DNA from: an uncultured Bacilli bacterium
GTDB lineage: Bacteria > Bacillota_I > Bacilli_A > RF39 > UBA660
DNA: 33,238 bases
NCBI GenBank assembly: GCA_944331715.1
Contig: CALVIP010000008.1
Location: 1-33,238 of the forward strand
Direction: 5' to 3'
Both the position numbers and the translations under genes were made by a program. Under the pieces are notes generated by a model. It was not told the origin of the DNA, did no database searches, and saw nothing but the letters and a program-made list of their open reading frames with translations. How positions within the stretch are numbered: the first letter of the stretch is position 1; each line of letters opens with the position of its first letter. Positions 2,878 through 11,351 of this stretch are shown here, piece by piece.

Positions 2878-2962
2878 TTTATTTAATTTTTATATAAAAT
2901 AATCGATTTTTAGCCTTTCTGAACGCTTATTTTTCATTAGATGAATAACTATATTATGAGTA

Positions 2963-3049
2963 TATAAAAAGTCTGTCAGAGGTCAATTAATGATGCACGG
3001 ACGGGCAATGTGCATACCGATTTTTCGGTATATTGACTAATGACAGACT
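2963..3049 (-). terminator. Three-way-junction hairpin plus T-run at RNA 3' end
   Basis: On the minus strand a 9-bp stem (AGTCTGTCA/TGACAGACT, 3041-3049 with 2970-2978) is continued by a second stem (2981-2987 with 3032-3038) enclosing two hairpins (2993-2998/3010-3015 and 3016-3020/3025-3029). It is followed at once by TTTTTATATA. This is the expected end of a minus-strand transcript covering the structured RNA and probably the tRNAs. Strand choice rests on the T-run and the surrounding minus-strand genes. Confidence 0.55.
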
Positions 3050-3545
3050 ATAATATGATATTGATAAAACATATTCAGTTTTAGTTATAATACCTTAAAG
3101 TTTAATAGAAGTCTTATCAATATCTACATAATATGAAAGAGTTGTAGGAATAAAATAATATTCAACTTAAACAATACTTGAAAGTGTTATATAAAAGAAA
3201 GGAATTGCCAAAAATAAATTAGCTTATGGTTTAGTTGCCAGAATTAACACTTATAATATCACTACTATTGTCACAAGTATTGTTATATTAATAAAGATTA
3301 TAATGTTCTATGGATAAAGTATAGATAAGAATAGCCTGAACTCCAATTACTTTATCTGTGACCTAATCACTTGGACTATATTTGAATAATTTACATAGAA
3401 CATCATAATCTTTAGCACCACTTATTTTATTACGAAGCATTTTTGTAGTGACTAACTGTATATTCGCTCCGGTTTCAGCAGCATAACTAGTATCTGCGTC
3501 CACAATAACTATAAAGGCTTTAACTAGTATTATACGATGATTGTT
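2966..3545 (-). ncRNA. Large multi-domain structured RNA candidate (ROOL/GOLLD-like)
   Basis: About 580 nt without any credible gene, next to tRNA-Gln, in an otherwise gene-packed genome. It breaks into consecutive long-stem domains: A, 2970-3049, a three-way junction; B, 3057-3067 with 3114-3124, 11 perfect pairs; a small hairpin 3148-3152/3159-3163; C, 3170-3180 with 3274-3284 (11 perfect pairs) enclosing 3182-3189 with 3245-3252 (8 pairs); D, 3293-3312 with 3394-3413, 20 pairs, enclosing hairpins 3313-3320/3349-3356 and 3358-3361/3367-3370. The single non-Watson-Crick position of stem D is G-U only on the minus strand. Segment 3414-3545 contains GC-rich patches but no long local stem. Known giant phage RNAs (ROOL about 580 nt, GOLLD about 800 nt) are ornate and lie beside phage tRNAs. 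Membership in either family is inference from size, structure and setting. Confidence 0.6.
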
Positions 3546-3562
3546 CGTACCATATCCATTAG

Positions 3563-3633
3563 TTGATGCGAGAGGAATCGAACCTCTACTAGAAGAACCA
3601 AAATCTTCTGTTCTACCTTTAAACTACGCATCA
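3563..3633 (-). tRNA. tRNA-Gln (anticodon TTG)
   Basis: A full cloverleaf can be drawn on the minus strand: acceptor TGATGCG/CGCATCA with discriminator A, D-stem GTTT/GAAC, anticodon stem GAAGA/TCTTC with loop TTTTGGT (anticodon TTG), T-arm AGAGG-TTCGATT-CCTCT. Length is 71 nt. The U1-A72 pair fits glutamine tRNAs. CCA is not encoded. It would read CAA, the dominant Gln codon in these AT-rich genes. It is not a stop-codon suppressor. Confidence 0.93.
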
Positions 3634-3856
3634 ATAATTATAGGATTAACGAGTTCCTTCTCGGCAGCATAATTATAATAATAACATAAATATGTGCACC
3701 TATATTATGTTATATTATAACTAATTACTATATCTGAACAGCACTTTACATTATATTCTTGTATTTTAGATATATGACAGATATTAACATATAAATGACT
3801 TTAAATCCGGATATGTCTACAAGAATAACCTACTTTAGTAGGATTTCTTTTAATTG
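3634..3856 (-). other. Structured spacer between the two tRNAs
   Basis: About 220 nt between tRNA-Leu and tRNA-Gln with no gene. Strong pairings: 3754-3763 with 3818-3827 (10 perfect pairs); 3673-3680 plus 3682-3689 with 3705-3720 (16 pairs around one bulged A); hairpin 3829-3833/3838-3842; hairpin 3650-3653/3660-3663 inside a 3634-3640/3670-3676 stem that competes with the 16-bp stem. This may be part of the same large RNA, with tRNA-Gln embedded, or spacer structure that guides tRNA processing. The sequence does not decide between these. Confidence 0.45.
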
Positions 3857-3943
3857 TACCAGAAGTGGGACTTGAACCCACACGACCTTTTACAGGTCAA
3901 AGGATTTTAAGTCCTTCATGTCTACCTATTCCATCATTCTGGC
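3857..3943 (-). tRNA. tRNA-Leu (anticodon TAA)
   Basis: Class II tRNA of 87 nt on the minus strand: acceptor GCCAGAA/TTCTGGT with discriminator A, anticodon stem AAGGA/TCCTT with loop CTTAAAA (anticodon TAA), long variable arm GACCT/AGGTC, T-arm GTGGG-TTCAAGT-CCCAC. CCA is not encoded. It reads TTA, which is common in the phage genes. The long variable arm and A73 support leucine identity. Confidence 0.93.
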
Positions 3944-3947
3944 ATAT

Positions 3948-3977
3948 AGTAGTATTAATATCACTACTAATACTACT
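3948..3977 (-). other. 10-bp hairpin just upstream of tRNA-Leu
   Basis: AGTAGTATTA (3948-3957) pairs perfectly with TAATACTACT (3968-3977) around a 10-nt loop. It lies between the last upstream gene (3999-4115) and tRNA-Leu, where a pre-tRNA leader or processing structure would be. No T-run follows it on the minus strand, so it is not an obvious terminator. Confidence 0.5.
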
Positions 3978-4333: not shown

Positions 4334-4451
4334 TATATGATTTTGTAAATCAATAATAGCATTTGCTAAATTAATAGGAGTGCAATCCTTATCATCAAAC
4401 TTATGTTGATTCTTAGGTTCATATATTTCAAGAACTTCTGAACTACTAGGT

Positions 4452-4526
4452 TTATTTTTTTAAAGTATCTTTAATAAATTCTTCTGTTATTTCTTCAATC
4501 ATTTTTAATAAATCGTTAGTCTTCAT
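4452..4526 (-). CDS. Short 24-aa frame, likely N-terminus of the 4115-4333 protein
   Basis: Starts MKTNDLLKMIEEITEEF and stops at TAA right after TTAAAAAAA. The start overlaps the stop of gene 4516-4650 by 11 bases. The downstream frame that is one base out of register continues coding to 4115. Either this is a homopolymer indel (mutation or sequencing error), or slippage on the A7 run makes both a short and a long product. Confidence 0.45.
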   Translation of the reverse strand: MKTNDLLKMIEEITEEFIKDTLKK

Positions 4527-4650
4527 ATATTCCTTTATAATTAGATTCAACTTCTTCTGGCTCAAAACCTACTTCATCATAATCTTGATTATAAACTTCG
4601 GAGTTTATTTCAACTCCGAAGTCATCATCATTATCTATTTTTTTACTCAT
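4516..4650 (-). CDS. Acidic microprotein, 44 aa
   Basis: Starts MSKKIDNDDDFGVEI and is rich in Asp/Glu throughout (DYDEVGFEPEEVES), ending GIYED. Its ATG overlaps the stop of the upstream 175-aa gene by 8 bases, and its 3' end overlaps the next small frame, which suggests an operon. No domain recognised. The negative charge could suit a DNA mimic or a protein-interaction tail, but nothing here shows that. Confidence 0.55.
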   Translation of the reverse strand: MSKKIDNDDDFGVEINSEVYNQDYDEVGFEPEEVESNYKGIYED

Positions 4651-5170
4651 TAGACTCAATAGTTTCAGTTTCAGTTTGAGTTTGTTCTTCTCCCTCTACG
4701 GGGGAGGCTTTACTGTCTTTAATATCATTTACGATATTTTCAGCAGCATCAGGAGTTATTTCCTCACGACCATTTACAATTTCACTATTAACGAAATCTT
4801 CAATAGTCTTATTTGCACTATTAGCGAAACAACTAAATGCTGCAACAAGACAATTAATGAAGAATGCTTGTTTGTAAGAGAACTCTCTTGACCAACCATC
4901 AGTAGTAACTACAAATTTATTCCATTTGAAAGTTACATATTTTTTTTCTCCATTAATTATACCTTTTTGTTTAAGATAATTAAGAATACCAAGTGCAGTA
5001 AATCTACGAATTTCTGCATTATTCTTAATAATCCTTATAAGGTTAGTATAAACCTCAGGCATTTTCTTTGCAAAAGGAGGAATTTCGCCTTTAGCAATTT
5101 TATTTCTCTTTGTTCCTTTAACTGTTTCTTTAGTTTCAACAGTTTCAACTCTTTCTTGTGTTGTTTCCAT
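4643..5170 (-). CDS. Unknown protein with acidic tails, 175 aa
   Basis: Three parts: a Thr/Glu/Lys-rich N-terminal tail (residues 1-30), a compact middle (about 35-130: KKMPEVYTNLIRIIKNN, FTALGILNYLKQKG, FKWNKFVVTTDGW), and an acidic, Thr/Glu-rich C-terminal tail. The C-terminal tail residues ASPVEGEEQ are encoded by a copy of the GC-rich CCCTCTACGGGGG element. The middle could be a helical nucleic-acid-binding fold, but no family is recognised. It has a promoter candidate at 5215-5244 and leads the small-gene operon running toward the tRNAs. Confidence 0.75.
   Translation of the reverse strand: METTQERVETVETKETVKGTKRNKIAKGEIPPFAKKMPEVYTNLIRIIKNNAEIRRFTALGILNYLKQKGIINGEKKYVTFKWNKFVVTTDGWSREFSYKQAFFINCLVAAFSCFANSANKTIEDFVNSEIVNGREEITPDAAENIVNDIKDSKASPVEGEEQTQTETETIESNE
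4690..4707 (+). repeat. GC-rich CCCTCTACGGGGG element, copy 2 (in-frame)
   Basis: CTCCCTCTACGGGGGAGG, able to form a CTCCC/GGGAG hairpin. It lies inside the coding region of the minus-strand gene 4643-5170, where it encodes SPVEG. Copy 6 at 21791 also encodes SPVE in an unrelated gene. Confidence 0.6.
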
Positions 5171-5315: not shown

Positions 5316-5903
5316 TTAGAAGCCCATCAACTTGTCTGCAAGTTTATCAGCCATTCTCATTCCACTCTTACCAAGTTTAATGTCTACTATATATTTGATA
5401 ATAGTATCATTATCAAACGTAGTAGGCTCTGGATTTACTTTAGTTGTAAAAGGATTAATATATTCTTCTCCTTTTGCAACTTCTTCAACGATAACATCAA
5501 TCTTGCTACCATTAAGAATAAGATTGAGAATGTTTGGATGTTCAATGATACTATTAGCCATCCAGGAAAGTTCTTCATTTTCTTTAAGAGTACCTGCAAT
5601 AGCAAATGTACTACTAAAGATATTATTAGACTTTCCCTTATGATATGTAGCACCATTATCATCGCTTACATATGCATCAATAGCCTCTCTTGTTACAAGA
5701 GTTGCACGAATATAGTTGTCAAATTCTTCAATAACTACATTCTTAACAGTGACATCATTTATTCTCTTACAGCCTTTAGCCATAAGTTCTTTAATAATGT
5801 CTTTCATAGTTCTTTCAGAACTATTTTCAATCTTTTCTTCTTGAACTGCTGCCTGCGGAACTTCCTGTTCTACTACGGCATTTTCAAACGTTGTTTTTGA
5901 CAT
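5316..5903 (-). CDS. Unknown protein, 195 aa
   Basis: A Glu/Gln/Val-rich N-terminal tail (residues 1-30) precedes a folded region with alternating beta-like segments (VTVKNVVIEEFDNYIRATLV, KIDVIVEEVAKGEEY) and a Lys-rich C-terminal helix. Not recognised as any enzyme. It is a single-gene unit: a copy of the five-copy promoter-like element lies at 5960-5990 and an inverted repeat follows the stop. The start has the AAAGTTATG context. The tail-plus-domain layout resembles gene 4643-5170 just downstream, though I see no clear sequence similarity. Confidence 0.8.
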   Translation of the reverse strand: MSKTTFENAVVEQEVPQAAVQEEKIENSSERTMKDIIKELMAKGCKRINDVTVKNVVIEEFDNYIRATLVTREAIDAYVSDDNGATYHKGKSNNIFSSTFAIAGTLKENEELSWMANSIIEHPNILNLILNGSKIDVIVEEVAKGEEYINPFTTKVNPEPTTFDNDTIIKYIVDIKLGKSGMRMADKLADKLMGF

Positions 5904-5959
5904 AACTTTAAATATTTAAAGATTTAACATTAAATGAATGACTTTTACTTTTACCATTC

Positions 5960-5990
5960 ATTCCAAATTTAATAAAGTTTAATATGAGGA
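5960..5990 (-). promoter_or_regulatory. Five-copy promoter-like element, copy 1
   Basis: Minus strand: TCCTCATATTAAACTTTATT followed by AAATTTGGAAT. It contains TAAATTTG, a match to the Bacteroidetes -7 box TAnnTTTG. It lies about 57 bases upstream of gene 5316-5903. The leader can fold AATGAATG with CATTCATT at its 5' end. Same element as at 6873, 7181, 7382 and 8125. Confidence 0.65.
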
Positions 5991-6065
5991 TAAATATAAT
6001 ATTATCAATGAATATCATTATAATTAATATAACAATATTTATTAATAATATTATATCTATAACTA

Positions 6066-6845: not shown

Positions 6846-6872
6846 ATCTTTAACATTTAAGTGTTAATATTC

Positions 6873-6903
6873 ATTCCAAATTTAATCAAGTTAAGTATGA
6901 GGA
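6873..6903 (-). promoter_or_regulatory. Five-copy promoter-like element, copy 2
   Basis: Minus strand: TCCTCATACTTAACTTGATT then AAATTTGGAAT, containing TAAATTTG. The leader to gene 6612-6845 is only about 28 nt and holds a TTAACA/TGTTAA hairpin. Confidence 0.65.
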
Positions 6904-6943
6904 ATAATAATAATTAAAAGAGTATGATAATGTTTATCAGATG

Positions 6944-7153
6944 CTATCGCTGCATAACAAGCAGGAATTGATGCTGCAATAACATTATCATACTCATACA
7001 TAAATTCAACCTTTCTATATACTGTTCGCGACCAGTATATACTCCTTTAACTAAATATTCACCATCATCAATTATGTTCCAATAATATGGAAAGGTCTTC
7101 AGAGCATATTCATAATCAATAATAGCGGCACTAACTATTGGACTTTGTAGCAC
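6944..7153 (-). CDS. Small protein, probably frameshifted; true end may be 6891
   Basis: The first 50 residues look like a real protein (SPIVSAAIIDYEYAL, YYWNIIDDGEYLVKGVYTGR), but the frame then turns into Met/Leu-rich nonsense and stops at 6944. From 7001 to 6891 another frame reads well (MYEYDNVIAASIPACYAA). One extra T near 7011 would join them (…YIERFEFMYEYDN…). There is no ATG start, only GTG at 7153 or an ATA further upstream. A promoter element lies just upstream. Best reading: a decaying or mis-sequenced gene. Confidence 0.45.
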   Translation of the reverse strand: MLQSPIVSAAIIDYEYALKTFPYYWNIIDDGEYLVKGVYTGREQYIERLNLCMSMIMLLQHQFLLVMQR

Positions 7154-7180
7154 TTGATTGTTCCAAATTCTTATTGGTCA

Positions 7181-7210
7181 ATCCAAAATTAATAAAGTGA
7201 AGTATGAGGA
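7181..7210 (-). promoter_or_regulatory. Five-copy promoter-like element, copy 3
   Basis: Minus strand: TCCTCATACTTCACTTTATT then AATTTTGGAT, containing TAATTTTG, a full TAnnTTTG match. It precedes the apparently broken gene 6944-7153 by about 28 bases. Confidence 0.6.
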
Positions 7211-7266
7211 ATAATGAAATAAATAATATCATCAATAATATTTCTATTATCAATGATATTATCTAT

Positions 7267-7347
7267 TTAATCCCAATCAAAGAAAGCATCTATTATTTCC
7301 CAAACATCATCAGGAATGTAATCAAGAATATAATCATCATCCCACAT
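7267..7347 (-). CDS. Highly acidic microprotein, 26 aa
   Basis: Starts MWDDDYILDYIPDDVWEII and ends with DAFFDWD. About 11 of 26 residues are Asp or Glu, interleaved with Trp, Phe, Tyr and Ile, and there are no Lys or Arg residues. It has its own copy of the promoter-like element 35 bases upstream (7382-7411), which argues that this tiny frame is expressed. The acidic, aromatic, helical pattern would suit a protein-binding or DNA-mimicking peptide; that is inference. Confidence 0.5.
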   Translation of the reverse strand: MWDDDYILDYIPDDVWEIIDAFFDWD

Positions 7348-7381
7348 AATAATTAATATTTAATAAAACACTTAATTTTCA

Positions 7382-7411
7382 GTCCAAACTTGATAAAGTT
7401 TAGTATGAGGA
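7382..7411 (-). promoter_or_regulatory. Five-copy promoter-like element, copy 4
   Basis: Minus strand: TCCTCATACTAAACTTTATC then AAGTTTGGAC. The -7-like box is CAAGTTTG, one mismatch from TAnnTTTG. It directly abuts the terminator of the upstream gene (7428-7455): the T-rich tail runs into the element. Confidence 0.6.
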
Positions 7412-7455
7412 ATAAAGAAAAAGAAAACCATTGATAGTACGAAGACTATCAATGG
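7412..7455 (-). terminator. Intrinsic terminator after gene 7525-8010
   Basis: CCATTGATAGT (7445-7455 read on minus) pairs perfectly over 11 bp with 7428-7438 around a 6-nt loop. It is followed on the minus strand by TTTTCTTTTTCTTT. A typical Rho-independent layout. Confidence 0.75.
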
Positions 7456-7524
7456 CAGTTGGAGCAATGGTGGCGAAAGCAATAGCGGCGAAAGCAATTG
7501 TAGCAATCGCCGCTGCTGCTATAA

Positions 7525-8010: not shown

Positions 8011-8124
8011 AACTACATGATTTGGTCTACCAACAGGTGTATCCTTACTACACCATTAAGTAAGACTAACGATTACAAGTGGTAGACGACTTGCAACCGC
8101 TGGAACATGGAATGTTTATTTTTC
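8011..8124 (-). promoter_or_regulatory. Structured 5' leader of gene 7525-8010
   Basis: Between the promoter element and the ATG, GTCTACCA (8025-8032) pairs with TGGTAGAC (8080-8087). This encloses GGTGTA/TACACC (8036-8041/8049-8054) and an alternative CTTAC/GTAAG pairing (8044-8048/8060-8064). The 5' end can fold GGAATG with CATTCC. The competing inner stems could make a translational switch or autoregulatory site. No known riboswitch is recognised. Confidence 0.5.
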
Positions 8125-8155
8125 ATTCCAATTTTATTAAAGTGTTGTATGAGGA
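8125..8155 (-). promoter_or_regulatory. Five-copy promoter-like element, copy 5
   Basis: Minus strand: TCCTCATACAACACTTTAAT then AAAATTGGAAT. The -7-like box is TAAAATTG, one mismatch from TAnnTTTG. It drives the structured leader and gene 7525-8010. Confidence 0.6.
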
Positions 8156-8416
8156 AGTTCTGAACTTTCATGACGGGGGACTTCAAAACCGTTATCACTA
8201 CCGGGGGTATTCTTACCAAAAGCTTCTCGCTCTCAATTATCAAAATTAATTTTTATTATTCTTTTTTTTTCTATATTCTTTTTCCTTTTCTTCTATATCT
8301 TCTTTTTCTTCTTTTTCTTCCTTTTCTTTCTTTATTTCTTTATATTCTTTATCTTTTTCTTTATGTTTTTTTATCTTTATTTTTATTTTTAATTTATTTA
8401 AGTAAACTAATATTTA
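8156..8416. other. 260-bp spacer with GC-rich patches and a polypurine tract
   Basis: The left part contains two GGGGG runs (GACGGGGGAC near 8173 and ACCGGGGGTA near 8203). The right part (about 8250-8400) is almost pure pyrimidine on plus. On the minus strand it forms an open frame of Lys/Glu repeats (KEKDKEYKEIKKEKEEKEEK) ending near 8250 with no ATG. It lies downstream of a terminator and upstream of a promoter element, so it may be untranscribed or a gene remnant. The plus-strand hydrophobic frame 8170-8433 is the shadow of this tract. Confidence 0.4.
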
Positions 8417-10279: not shown

Positions 10280-10350
10280 AACTATATTTATTTAACTTTA
10301 ATAATCATCAATAATAACAAGAAGATCAAGAGGAAGATGAATGCATGCAA

Positions 10351-10365
10351 TCCCTCTACGGGGAG
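10351..10365 (+). repeat. GC-rich CCCTCTACGGGG element, copy 3 (intergenic)
   Basis: TCCCTCTACGGGGAG in the divergent region, preceded by GCATGCAA. TCCC can pair with GGGA around a short loop. Confidence 0.6.
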
Positions 10366-10380
10366 TGTCGTTAGAACAAG

Positions 10381-10458
10381 TTAGATCTTTAATAACAACA
10401 CTTGCAATAATTGCAATAACAGCAAGAGTAGTATCAATAATACAATATTAATTTCCAT
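10381..10458 (-). CDS. Possible hydrophobic 25-aa peptide
   Basis: Starts MEINIVLLILLLLLLQLLQV and then LLLKI. If translated it is a single membrane helix. It lies in the divergent control region and could simply be chance in low-complexity DNA. There is no recognisable promoter and no overlap coupling. Confidence 0.2.
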   Translation of the reverse strand: MEINIVLLILLLLLLQLLQVLLLKI

Positions 10459-10551
10459 TACTAATATTATCAATAACAAAACCTTAATTATAATTACCAA
10501 GATAAACAGTATCAGTATTACTAAGATAAGCATTATTATAAATTCTCCGAA

Positions 10552-10613
10552 ATATAATAAATATATAAATAATATAATAATAAATTATTATATTATTTAT
10601 ATATTTATTATAT
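10552..10613. repeat. Perfect AT inverted repeat, 30-bp arms
   Basis: Positions 10552-10581 are the exact reverse complement of 10584-10613 with a 2-nt spacer. The arms are pure A/T. A perfect 30-bp arm is well beyond what random AT sequence gives and would extrude as a cruciform or form a very stable hairpin in single-stranded DNA. Confidence 0.9.
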
Positions 10614-10633
10614 AAACAATACTTCTGCTTATG

Positions 10634-10682
10634 TTATTTATAATTATAATATAATATATTATTATATTATAATTATAAATAA
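10634..10682. repeat. AT inverted repeat, 23-bp arms
   Basis: Positions 10634-10656 pair perfectly with 10660-10682 around a 3-nt loop. It lies 20 bp after the first palindrome; the segment between (TAAACAATACTTCTGCTTATG) is the only mixed-sequence DNA there and may be a protein-binding spacer. Confidence 0.9.
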
Positions 10683-10749
10683 TGTTCAAATTATATATTA
10701 TATTATTATTCTAGATTATTATATATTATTATTTATTAATAATTATCAT

Positions 10750-10775
10750 TCAAGAATAATAATTATTATTCTTGA
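10750..10775. repeat. Perfect 26-bp palindrome
   Basis: TCAAGAATAATAA followed directly by its reverse complement, with no spacer. The two-fold symmetry suggests a dimeric protein-binding site. Confidence 0.85.
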
Positions 10776-10776
10776 T

Positions 10777-10788
10777 ACGCGCGCGCGT
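10777..10788. repeat. Alternating CG run (Z-DNA-prone)
   Basis: ACGCGCGCGCGT, five consecutive CG steps in an extremely AT-rich setting, directly after the 26-bp palindrome. Alternating purine-pyrimidine CG tracts are the classic Z-DNA-forming sequence. Confidence 0.75.
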
Positions 10789-10794
10789 GATATA

Positions 10795-10822
10795 CCTATA
10801 TGTGCGTGCGCACACGTATAGG
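10795..10822. repeat. 28-bp imperfect palindrome, alternating purine-pyrimidine
   Basis: CCTATA … TATAGG flanks GTGCGTGCGCAC. Eleven of 14 arm positions are Watson-Crick and two more are G-T. From 10797 to 10820 purines and pyrimidines alternate without a break, so this is a second Z-prone tract about 10 bp from the first. Possible operator or origin element. Confidence 0.75.
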
Positions 10823-10898
10823 CCTGCTGAAAAACAAATTTGCACATTTCGACAATTTTTCGTACCATTGTTGACAGAAAATCAAAATTACTAAAGTT

Positions 10899-11351
10899 AT
10901 GAATCTTGCTATTGATAATAGACCTAGTAAATCTTTATTTACAGATAGAGAAAATAATTGTTATGCTGAAAATAATAAGATAACAAGAATGATTAACTGT
11001 GATAATAAAGACGATGTTGCTAAACTTATATTTTCTTTACTTTTTGATGCTTATCAATTCAGTAAAGATGAATATATTTTCCTTAATGCTTTATTTACTA
11101 CTTGTATTAAAAATAATAAAAATGAAATAAATAAAGCAGCTTTTATTACTTATCTTTCTAAAGTTTATGGTCGTTCTATTAGAACTTATGAAAGATATAT
11201 TAAGAAATTTATTACTAAAGGTATTCTTATAAACACTATTGGTGTTTTACATTTTACTCAATTTTATAATCCACTTAATATTAAAACTTCTTCAGATTTT
11301 ATTGTTATAGAAGTTAATCCTAATAAAAATAAAAATAAGATTACATTATGA
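10899..11351 (+). CDS. Winged-helix DNA-binding protein, 150 aa
   Basis: First gene of the rightward arm. Residues about 40-115 look like a winged-helix replication/regulatory domain: FSLLFDAYQFSKDEYIFLNA, FITYLSKVYGRSIRTYERY as helix-turn-helix, then IKKFITKGILINTIGVLHFT as wing. The Lys/Asn-rich tail is probably disordered. It faces away from gene 9578-10279 across the palindrome region, so the two could be opposing regulators of the arms, or this one could regulate late genes. The start has AAAGTTATG context, with TTGACA 26 bases upstream. Confidence 0.6.
   Translation: MNLAIDNRPSKSLFTDRENNCYAENNKITRMINCDNKDDVAKLIFSLLFDAYQFSKDEYIFLNALFTTCIKNNKNEINKAAFITYLSKVYGRSIRTYERYIKKFITKGILINTIGVLHFTQFYNPLNIKTSSDFIVIEVNPNKNKNKITL

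Follow-up and report, generated by a model that had tools for sequence, protein, structure and literature searches.

The 33,238-nucleotide stretch of DNA analysed here (the window) probably encodes a folded non-coding RNA of about 600 nt, which matches no known family and would be made by a gut crAss-like phage. The window is one contig of a 108-contig, 1.16-Mb assembly and encodes a crAss-like large terminase, portal and major capsid protein (Crassvirales, Intestiviridae-like); its nearest named relatives are Intestiviridae phages, with about 75% DNA identity. The crAss-like phages are among the most abundant gut viruses, and a few members have been cultured. An earlier note had read about 580 bases of the window (2966-3545) as a giant structured phage RNA resembling ROOL and GOLLD, or as a new class should it match neither, and that interpretation is partly supported.

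The candidate RNA sits in the early-gene part of the window, where genes are on the minus strand. Along that strand a gene at 5316-5903, a gene at 4643-5170 and a small acidic-protein gene are followed by tRNA-Leu, tRNA-Gln, the stretch of about 600 nt, a gene at 2521-2877, small genes and a helicase gene. The tRNA unit consists of the following:

3856-3943, minus strand: tRNA-Leu (UAA), the first tRNA of the array, called by ARAGORN and Rfam RF00005 and kept in most relatives.
3562-3633, minus strand: tRNA-Gln (UUG), immediately before the candidate RNA, called by ARAGORN and Rfam; many relatives have it in the syntenic position.
2962-3561, minus strand: proposed structured RNA of about 600 nt, non-coding, the putative 3' trailer of the tRNA unit, drawn from the 3' end of tRNA-Gln to a U-run.

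Two further features lie upstream of the tRNAs. A 10-bp hairpin (3944-3977, minus strand; AGTAGTATTA..TAATACTACT) is positioned directly upstream of the tRNA-Leu 5' end, and the stretch bearing it is conserved with several relatives. The small acidic-protein gene, which is unlisted, spans about 4450-4640 on the minus strand (..YDEVGFEPEEVE..) and has homologues in G003, G005, G010, G027 and L170. An 80-nt stretch upstream of the tRNAs that is common to five relatives was considered as a second RNA and rejected, as it corresponds to this gene.

The 680 bases from tRNA-Gln to the next gene are non-coding, with neither an ORF nor protein homology, in agreement with the gene-free stretch described previously. 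The longest stop-to-stop stretch in the region is 65 codons (90 with TAG read through), and no homologous protein was found for the region's open frames among phages at E<=10 or in Pfam. It is most improbable that this is a decayed protein gene of which the 65-codon open frame (3363-3560, minus strand) is the remnant. The frame has a protein-like composition, but there is no start codon near its beginning and no homologue in the searches above, and in the relative G010, which has a copy of the 5' part of the region, indels break the frame while a hairpin is kept; a coding reading was rejected on these grounds.

All of the stems listed in the earlier note were found at their places when read on the minus strand:

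3292-3414, minus strand: domain closed by a 21-bp stem (3394-3414/3292-3312, one G-U) and enclosing two to three hairpins; z -6.0 on the minus and -4.3 on the plus strand; no homologue.
3170-3284, minus strand: domain with an 11-bp closing stem (3274-3284/3170-3180) and an 8-bp arm inside it; z -2.7; no homologue.
3057-3124, minus strand: 14-bp stem (3111-3124/3057-3070, one G-U on minus); z -3.3 on the minus and -2.0 on the plus strand; no homologue.
2962-3049, minus strand: three-way junction of 9 bp (3041-3049/2970-2978) and an inner 6 bp, with two hairpins and then UUUUUAUAUA, forming a terminator-like 3' end; z -6.1 (2962-3052); its model, R3, is specific to the window.

Differences from the original description are small: the stem given as 20 bp is 21 bp with one G-U, the 11-bp stem at 3057-3067/3114-3124 extends to 14 bp, and the 9+7 bp stem with two hairpins (2970-3049) was found as 9+6 bp. 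The U-run TTTTTATATA does lie directly after the last stem on the minus strand, and the argument for that strand from a pair that is G-U on minus and A-C on plus is correct; the 14-bp stem likewise has a G-U that becomes a mismatch on plus. The region has a stem score of 27, which was reached by none of 200 shuffles (mean 8, maximum 22). Folding of the whole region gives -140.8 kcal/mol on the minus strand vs -129.3 on the plus strand (z -4.1 and -3.5, respectively), and on the minus strand the domains at 2962-3052 (z -6.1) and 3290-3416 (z -6.0) exceed their shuffles by about 6 SD. For the 146 nt that come first after tRNA-Gln, folding is at chance level (z +0.4).

Many non-coding gaps of these phages fold strongly, and folding energy is therefore not enough to support the claim; comparison is needed. 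Other 600-nt slices of the same early region have stem scores of 38, 28 and 27, and two gaps, 6846-7524 (z -5.8) and 10280-11000 (z -7.8), fold more strongly relative to shuffles than the candidate region. Across 86 non-coding gaps drawn from the window and its relatives, the mean z is -4.6 for those adjacent to tRNAs (n=9) vs -3.1 for the others (n=77). The main rival explanation, which is possible if somewhat doubtful, is that the stretch is a fast-evolving spacer ending the tRNA unit, whose processing or terminator hairpins stop transcription and protect the 3' end of the tRNA transcript, the rest being without a role. The abundance of strong hairpins in gaps of the window phage and its relatives fits this explanation, as does the terminator-like last stem, although a terminator needs no 21-bp branched domain 330 nt upstream.

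Both strongly folding gaps have features of their own. The 6846-7524 gap (minus strand) is 680 nt of non-coding DNA with a folding energy of -169 kcal/mol, and holds three promoter-like repeats. These belong to a 62-nt repeat, CCTCATACTTAACTTGATTAAATTTGGAATGAA, with five minus-strand copies (5945-6006, 6858-6919, 7165-7226, 7366-7427 and 8110-8171). Several copies precede genes on that strand and carry TAnnTTTG, the Bacteroidetes -7 promoter consensus; the repeats are probably early phage promoters. At 10550-10830, between divergent genes, there are CGCGCGCG / GTGCGTGCGCAC tracts and several AT-rich palindromes that are perfect, with arms of 30 and 23 bp; similar AT palindromes are present in relatives, and the region is possibly an origin or a divergent promoter region.

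An Rfam search of the window returned tRNAs only, both at normal cut-offs and with permissive filters (E<=5). Membership in ROOL or GOLLD, to which the note had drawn a resemblance, is not supported: the GOLLD model (RF02032, 416 positions) has no match in the whole assembly at E<=10, and neither has the ROOL model (RF03087, 574 positions), for which control genomes gave no match either, leaving its sensitivity unconfirmed. BLASTN of the region against GenBank phages found only tRNA-Gln, and comparison with 391 genomes related to the window's assembly yielded AT-rich chance matches only. The absence from Rfam, the setting in a crAss-like phage and the tRNA-Gln neighbour all stand. ROOL and GOLLD are often encoded near the tRNA islands of phages and prophages, and it is the 3' region of GOLLD that constitutes its conserved part (PMC12286853). 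The window RNA shares this kind of location, in a phage and beside tRNAs. It resembles ROOL further in that ROOL is about 570 nt and branched with long stems, but ROOL's conserved core and pseudoknots were not found in it, and it has no model score. As with phage-borne GOLLD in its tRNA arrays, one part is more conserved than the rest, whereas GOLLD keeps its 3' region and the window RNA shares only a 5' motif. Assembly into a homo-oligomeric nanocage is a further trait of ROOL, and a rise in expression during phage lysis one of GOLLD. That the window RNA is a ROOL- or GOLLD-like RNA assembling into a symmetric multimer or cage is suggested by its size, branching, phage genome and tRNA proximity; against this, neither model gives a match at E<=10 and the only Rfam matches at E<=5 are tRNAs, and such an assembly seems very unlikely.

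The 5' motif was identified by comparison with a relative, G010 (IMGVR_UViG_3300012983_000117):

3488-3557, minus strand: conserved 5' motif, GGAUAUGG-hairpin-UAAUACUAGUUAA..CCUUU..ACGCA, also in G010; represented by model R1.
3532-3550, minus strand: hairpin GUACGA-ACAAUCA-UCGUAU, with an invariant loop and a covarying stem in the alignment of the window and G010.

The motif is about 70 nt long and starts 5 nt after tRNA-Gln; its copy in G010 is inside a tRNA array, between tRNA-Leu and tRNA-Glu. The two align locally with a score of 64, compared with a maximum of 42 for shuffles. In the hairpin, the 7-nt loop ACAAUCA is identical, two pairs show compensatory swaps and there is one G-U/A-U exchange; G010 also has matching 1-nt insertions, one to each side of the hairpin. 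With two sequences only, 124 of 500 shuffles show covariation as high, and the alignment is suggestive rather than conclusive of an RNA hairpin. A loop that stays invariant while the stem varies is what one expects of an RNA hairpin, and not of a coding sequence or an ordinary operator.

This pattern also bears on whether the region acts at the DNA level, for instance in protein binding or replication, and not as RNA. Plus-strand folding is also good and the motif holds TATAAT-like and ACTAGT sequences, but the minus-strand G-U pairs break on plus, and a conserved loop with a varying stem is the reverse of a typical inverted-repeat operator; we regard a DNA element as highly improbable.

The motif (GGAUAUGG, the ACAAUCA-loop hairpin and UAAUACUAGUUAA) is present in the window, and only two members were found. 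Model R1 scores these at 95 and 90 bits and everything else at about 21 or less; DNA-pattern scans of collections and R1 searches gave no third member, and among the pattern-scan matches G010 alone has the motif in full together with a stem of at least 6 bp. BLASTN of the 93-nt motif alone against GenBank phages gave chance matches only. Beyond the motif there is no significant similarity between the window and G010, and the approximately 390 nt after the motif in G010 are likewise non-coding and hold a 19-bp stem with branches inside it; z is -3.3 on the tRNA strand vs -1.3. Searches of viral contigs by motif and by neighbouring genes, of GenBank phages and of the 391 genomes gave no homologue of the four long stems, leaving the giant, ornate form of the RNA putative, and the single-sequence model R3 of the 3' junction matches only itself. 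As bait in viral contigs, the neighbouring helicase gave 21 loci and the three short genes none. Covariation among relatives, put forward earlier as a test of the listed stems, was seen thinly in one hairpin at the 5' end; it is clear in another RNA, which three relatives carry at this locus.

In these three (G005, G027 and G003) a conserved non-coding RNA of about 300-350 nt lies directly after tRNA-Gln, or after tRNA-Asn in G003:

L165:6418-6800 (G027), L166:6505-6885 (G005) and L167:5192-5640 (G003), tRNA strand: structured RNA supported by covariation.

Its main hairpin has 21 stem pairs, of which 5 differ at both positions in G003, with 96.8% of cells paired; 3 of 500 shuffles are as good, and the signal vanishes when the partner is slid by 1-3 columns. 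On the tRNA strand the covariance model R2 reaches 75-90 bits, compared with 23-27 bits on the opposite one, and the G-U pairs also point to the tRNA strand. In G027, a stop together with a frameshift abolishes a 50-codon ORF that is present in G005. There is no match in Rfam or among GenBank phages. This RNA is better supported than the window RNA, with which it shares the syntenic place, the tRNA strand, and its non-coding and structured nature, but no detectable homology of sequence or structure: R2, the main-stem model, gives at best 5 bits in the candidate region with filters off. A scan of viral contigs with the hairpin-1 pattern was too unspecific, and R2 applied to 50 of the resulting loci found only G027 again. 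In other relatives (L162-L164) the tRNAs are tightly packed and without a long RNA, and prototype crAssphage has small coding genes and no annotated tRNA at the orthologous place. For crAss002, a cultured Intestiviridae phage with a helicase at only 38% identity, strand-specific RNA-seq data are available (PMC12118408). The tRNA at the tRNA-Gln position in G003 (L167:5120-5191), called as tRNA-Asn, has the anticodon ATT, which is unusual for bacteria and phages.

We return to the spacer explanation. That almost nothing is conserved outside the 70-nt motif and that the locus varies between close relatives both agree with it, and it stays alive because the large stems are orphans; against it are the invariant loop and covarying stem of the motif, and the real covarying RNA that three relatives have in this position. 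We give about an even chance to the reading of a structured non-coding RNA that is specific to this lineage, encoded on the minus strand and forming the 3' portion of the transcript of tRNA-Leu and tRNA-Gln. It draws on the lack of ORFs and protein homology, on stems that exceed shuffles and are better on the minus strand, and on the U-run after the last stem; on G010, which shares the motif and has a non-coding continuation with a branched 19-bp stem; and on the covarying RNA at the orthologous place in three relatives, together with the somewhat better folding of tRNA-adjacent gaps. Counting against a functional RNA are a motif that rests on two sequences, long stems without a homologue, equally strong gaps elsewhere, and the many relatives that have tRNAs and no long RNA.

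For the window RNA, we infer transcription, processing, stability and any function in trans as follows. Transcription would pass through tRNA-Leu, tRNA-Gln and then the 600-nt stretch, stopping at the three-way junction and U-run (about 2962). Ordinary processing of the tRNA-Gln 3' end would release the RNA, with its start 4-5 nt before the conserved motif, and the motif hairpin at this new 5' end may offer its fixed ACAAUCA loop to a protein or another RNA as a recognition element. The long stems would make the RNA compact and nuclease-resistant, such that it could last through infection and work as an RNA in its own right.

It is plausible that the window RNA is a new structured RNA, specific to its lineage, at a locus that in relatives demonstrably holds a different one. 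A broader proposal, which we put forward tentatively and consider unlikely, is that in Intestiviridae crAss-like phages the tRNA array serves as a hot spot at which lineages carry unrelated large structured RNAs (of the window/G010 and G003/G005/G027 types), cut from tRNA transcripts and acting in trans during infection, and that these form a new class in Bacteroidales phages, functionally parallel to ROOL and GOLLD. The covarying RNA of G003, G005 and G027 is the firmest piece and provides a starting alignment. We know of no function for ROOL and GOLLD, the large phage RNAs beside tRNA islands; if crAss-like phages have independent RNAs of their own in such a setting, the fact that they converge on the tRNA locus would give a clue to what these RNAs do, and their role would be testable in Bacteroides.
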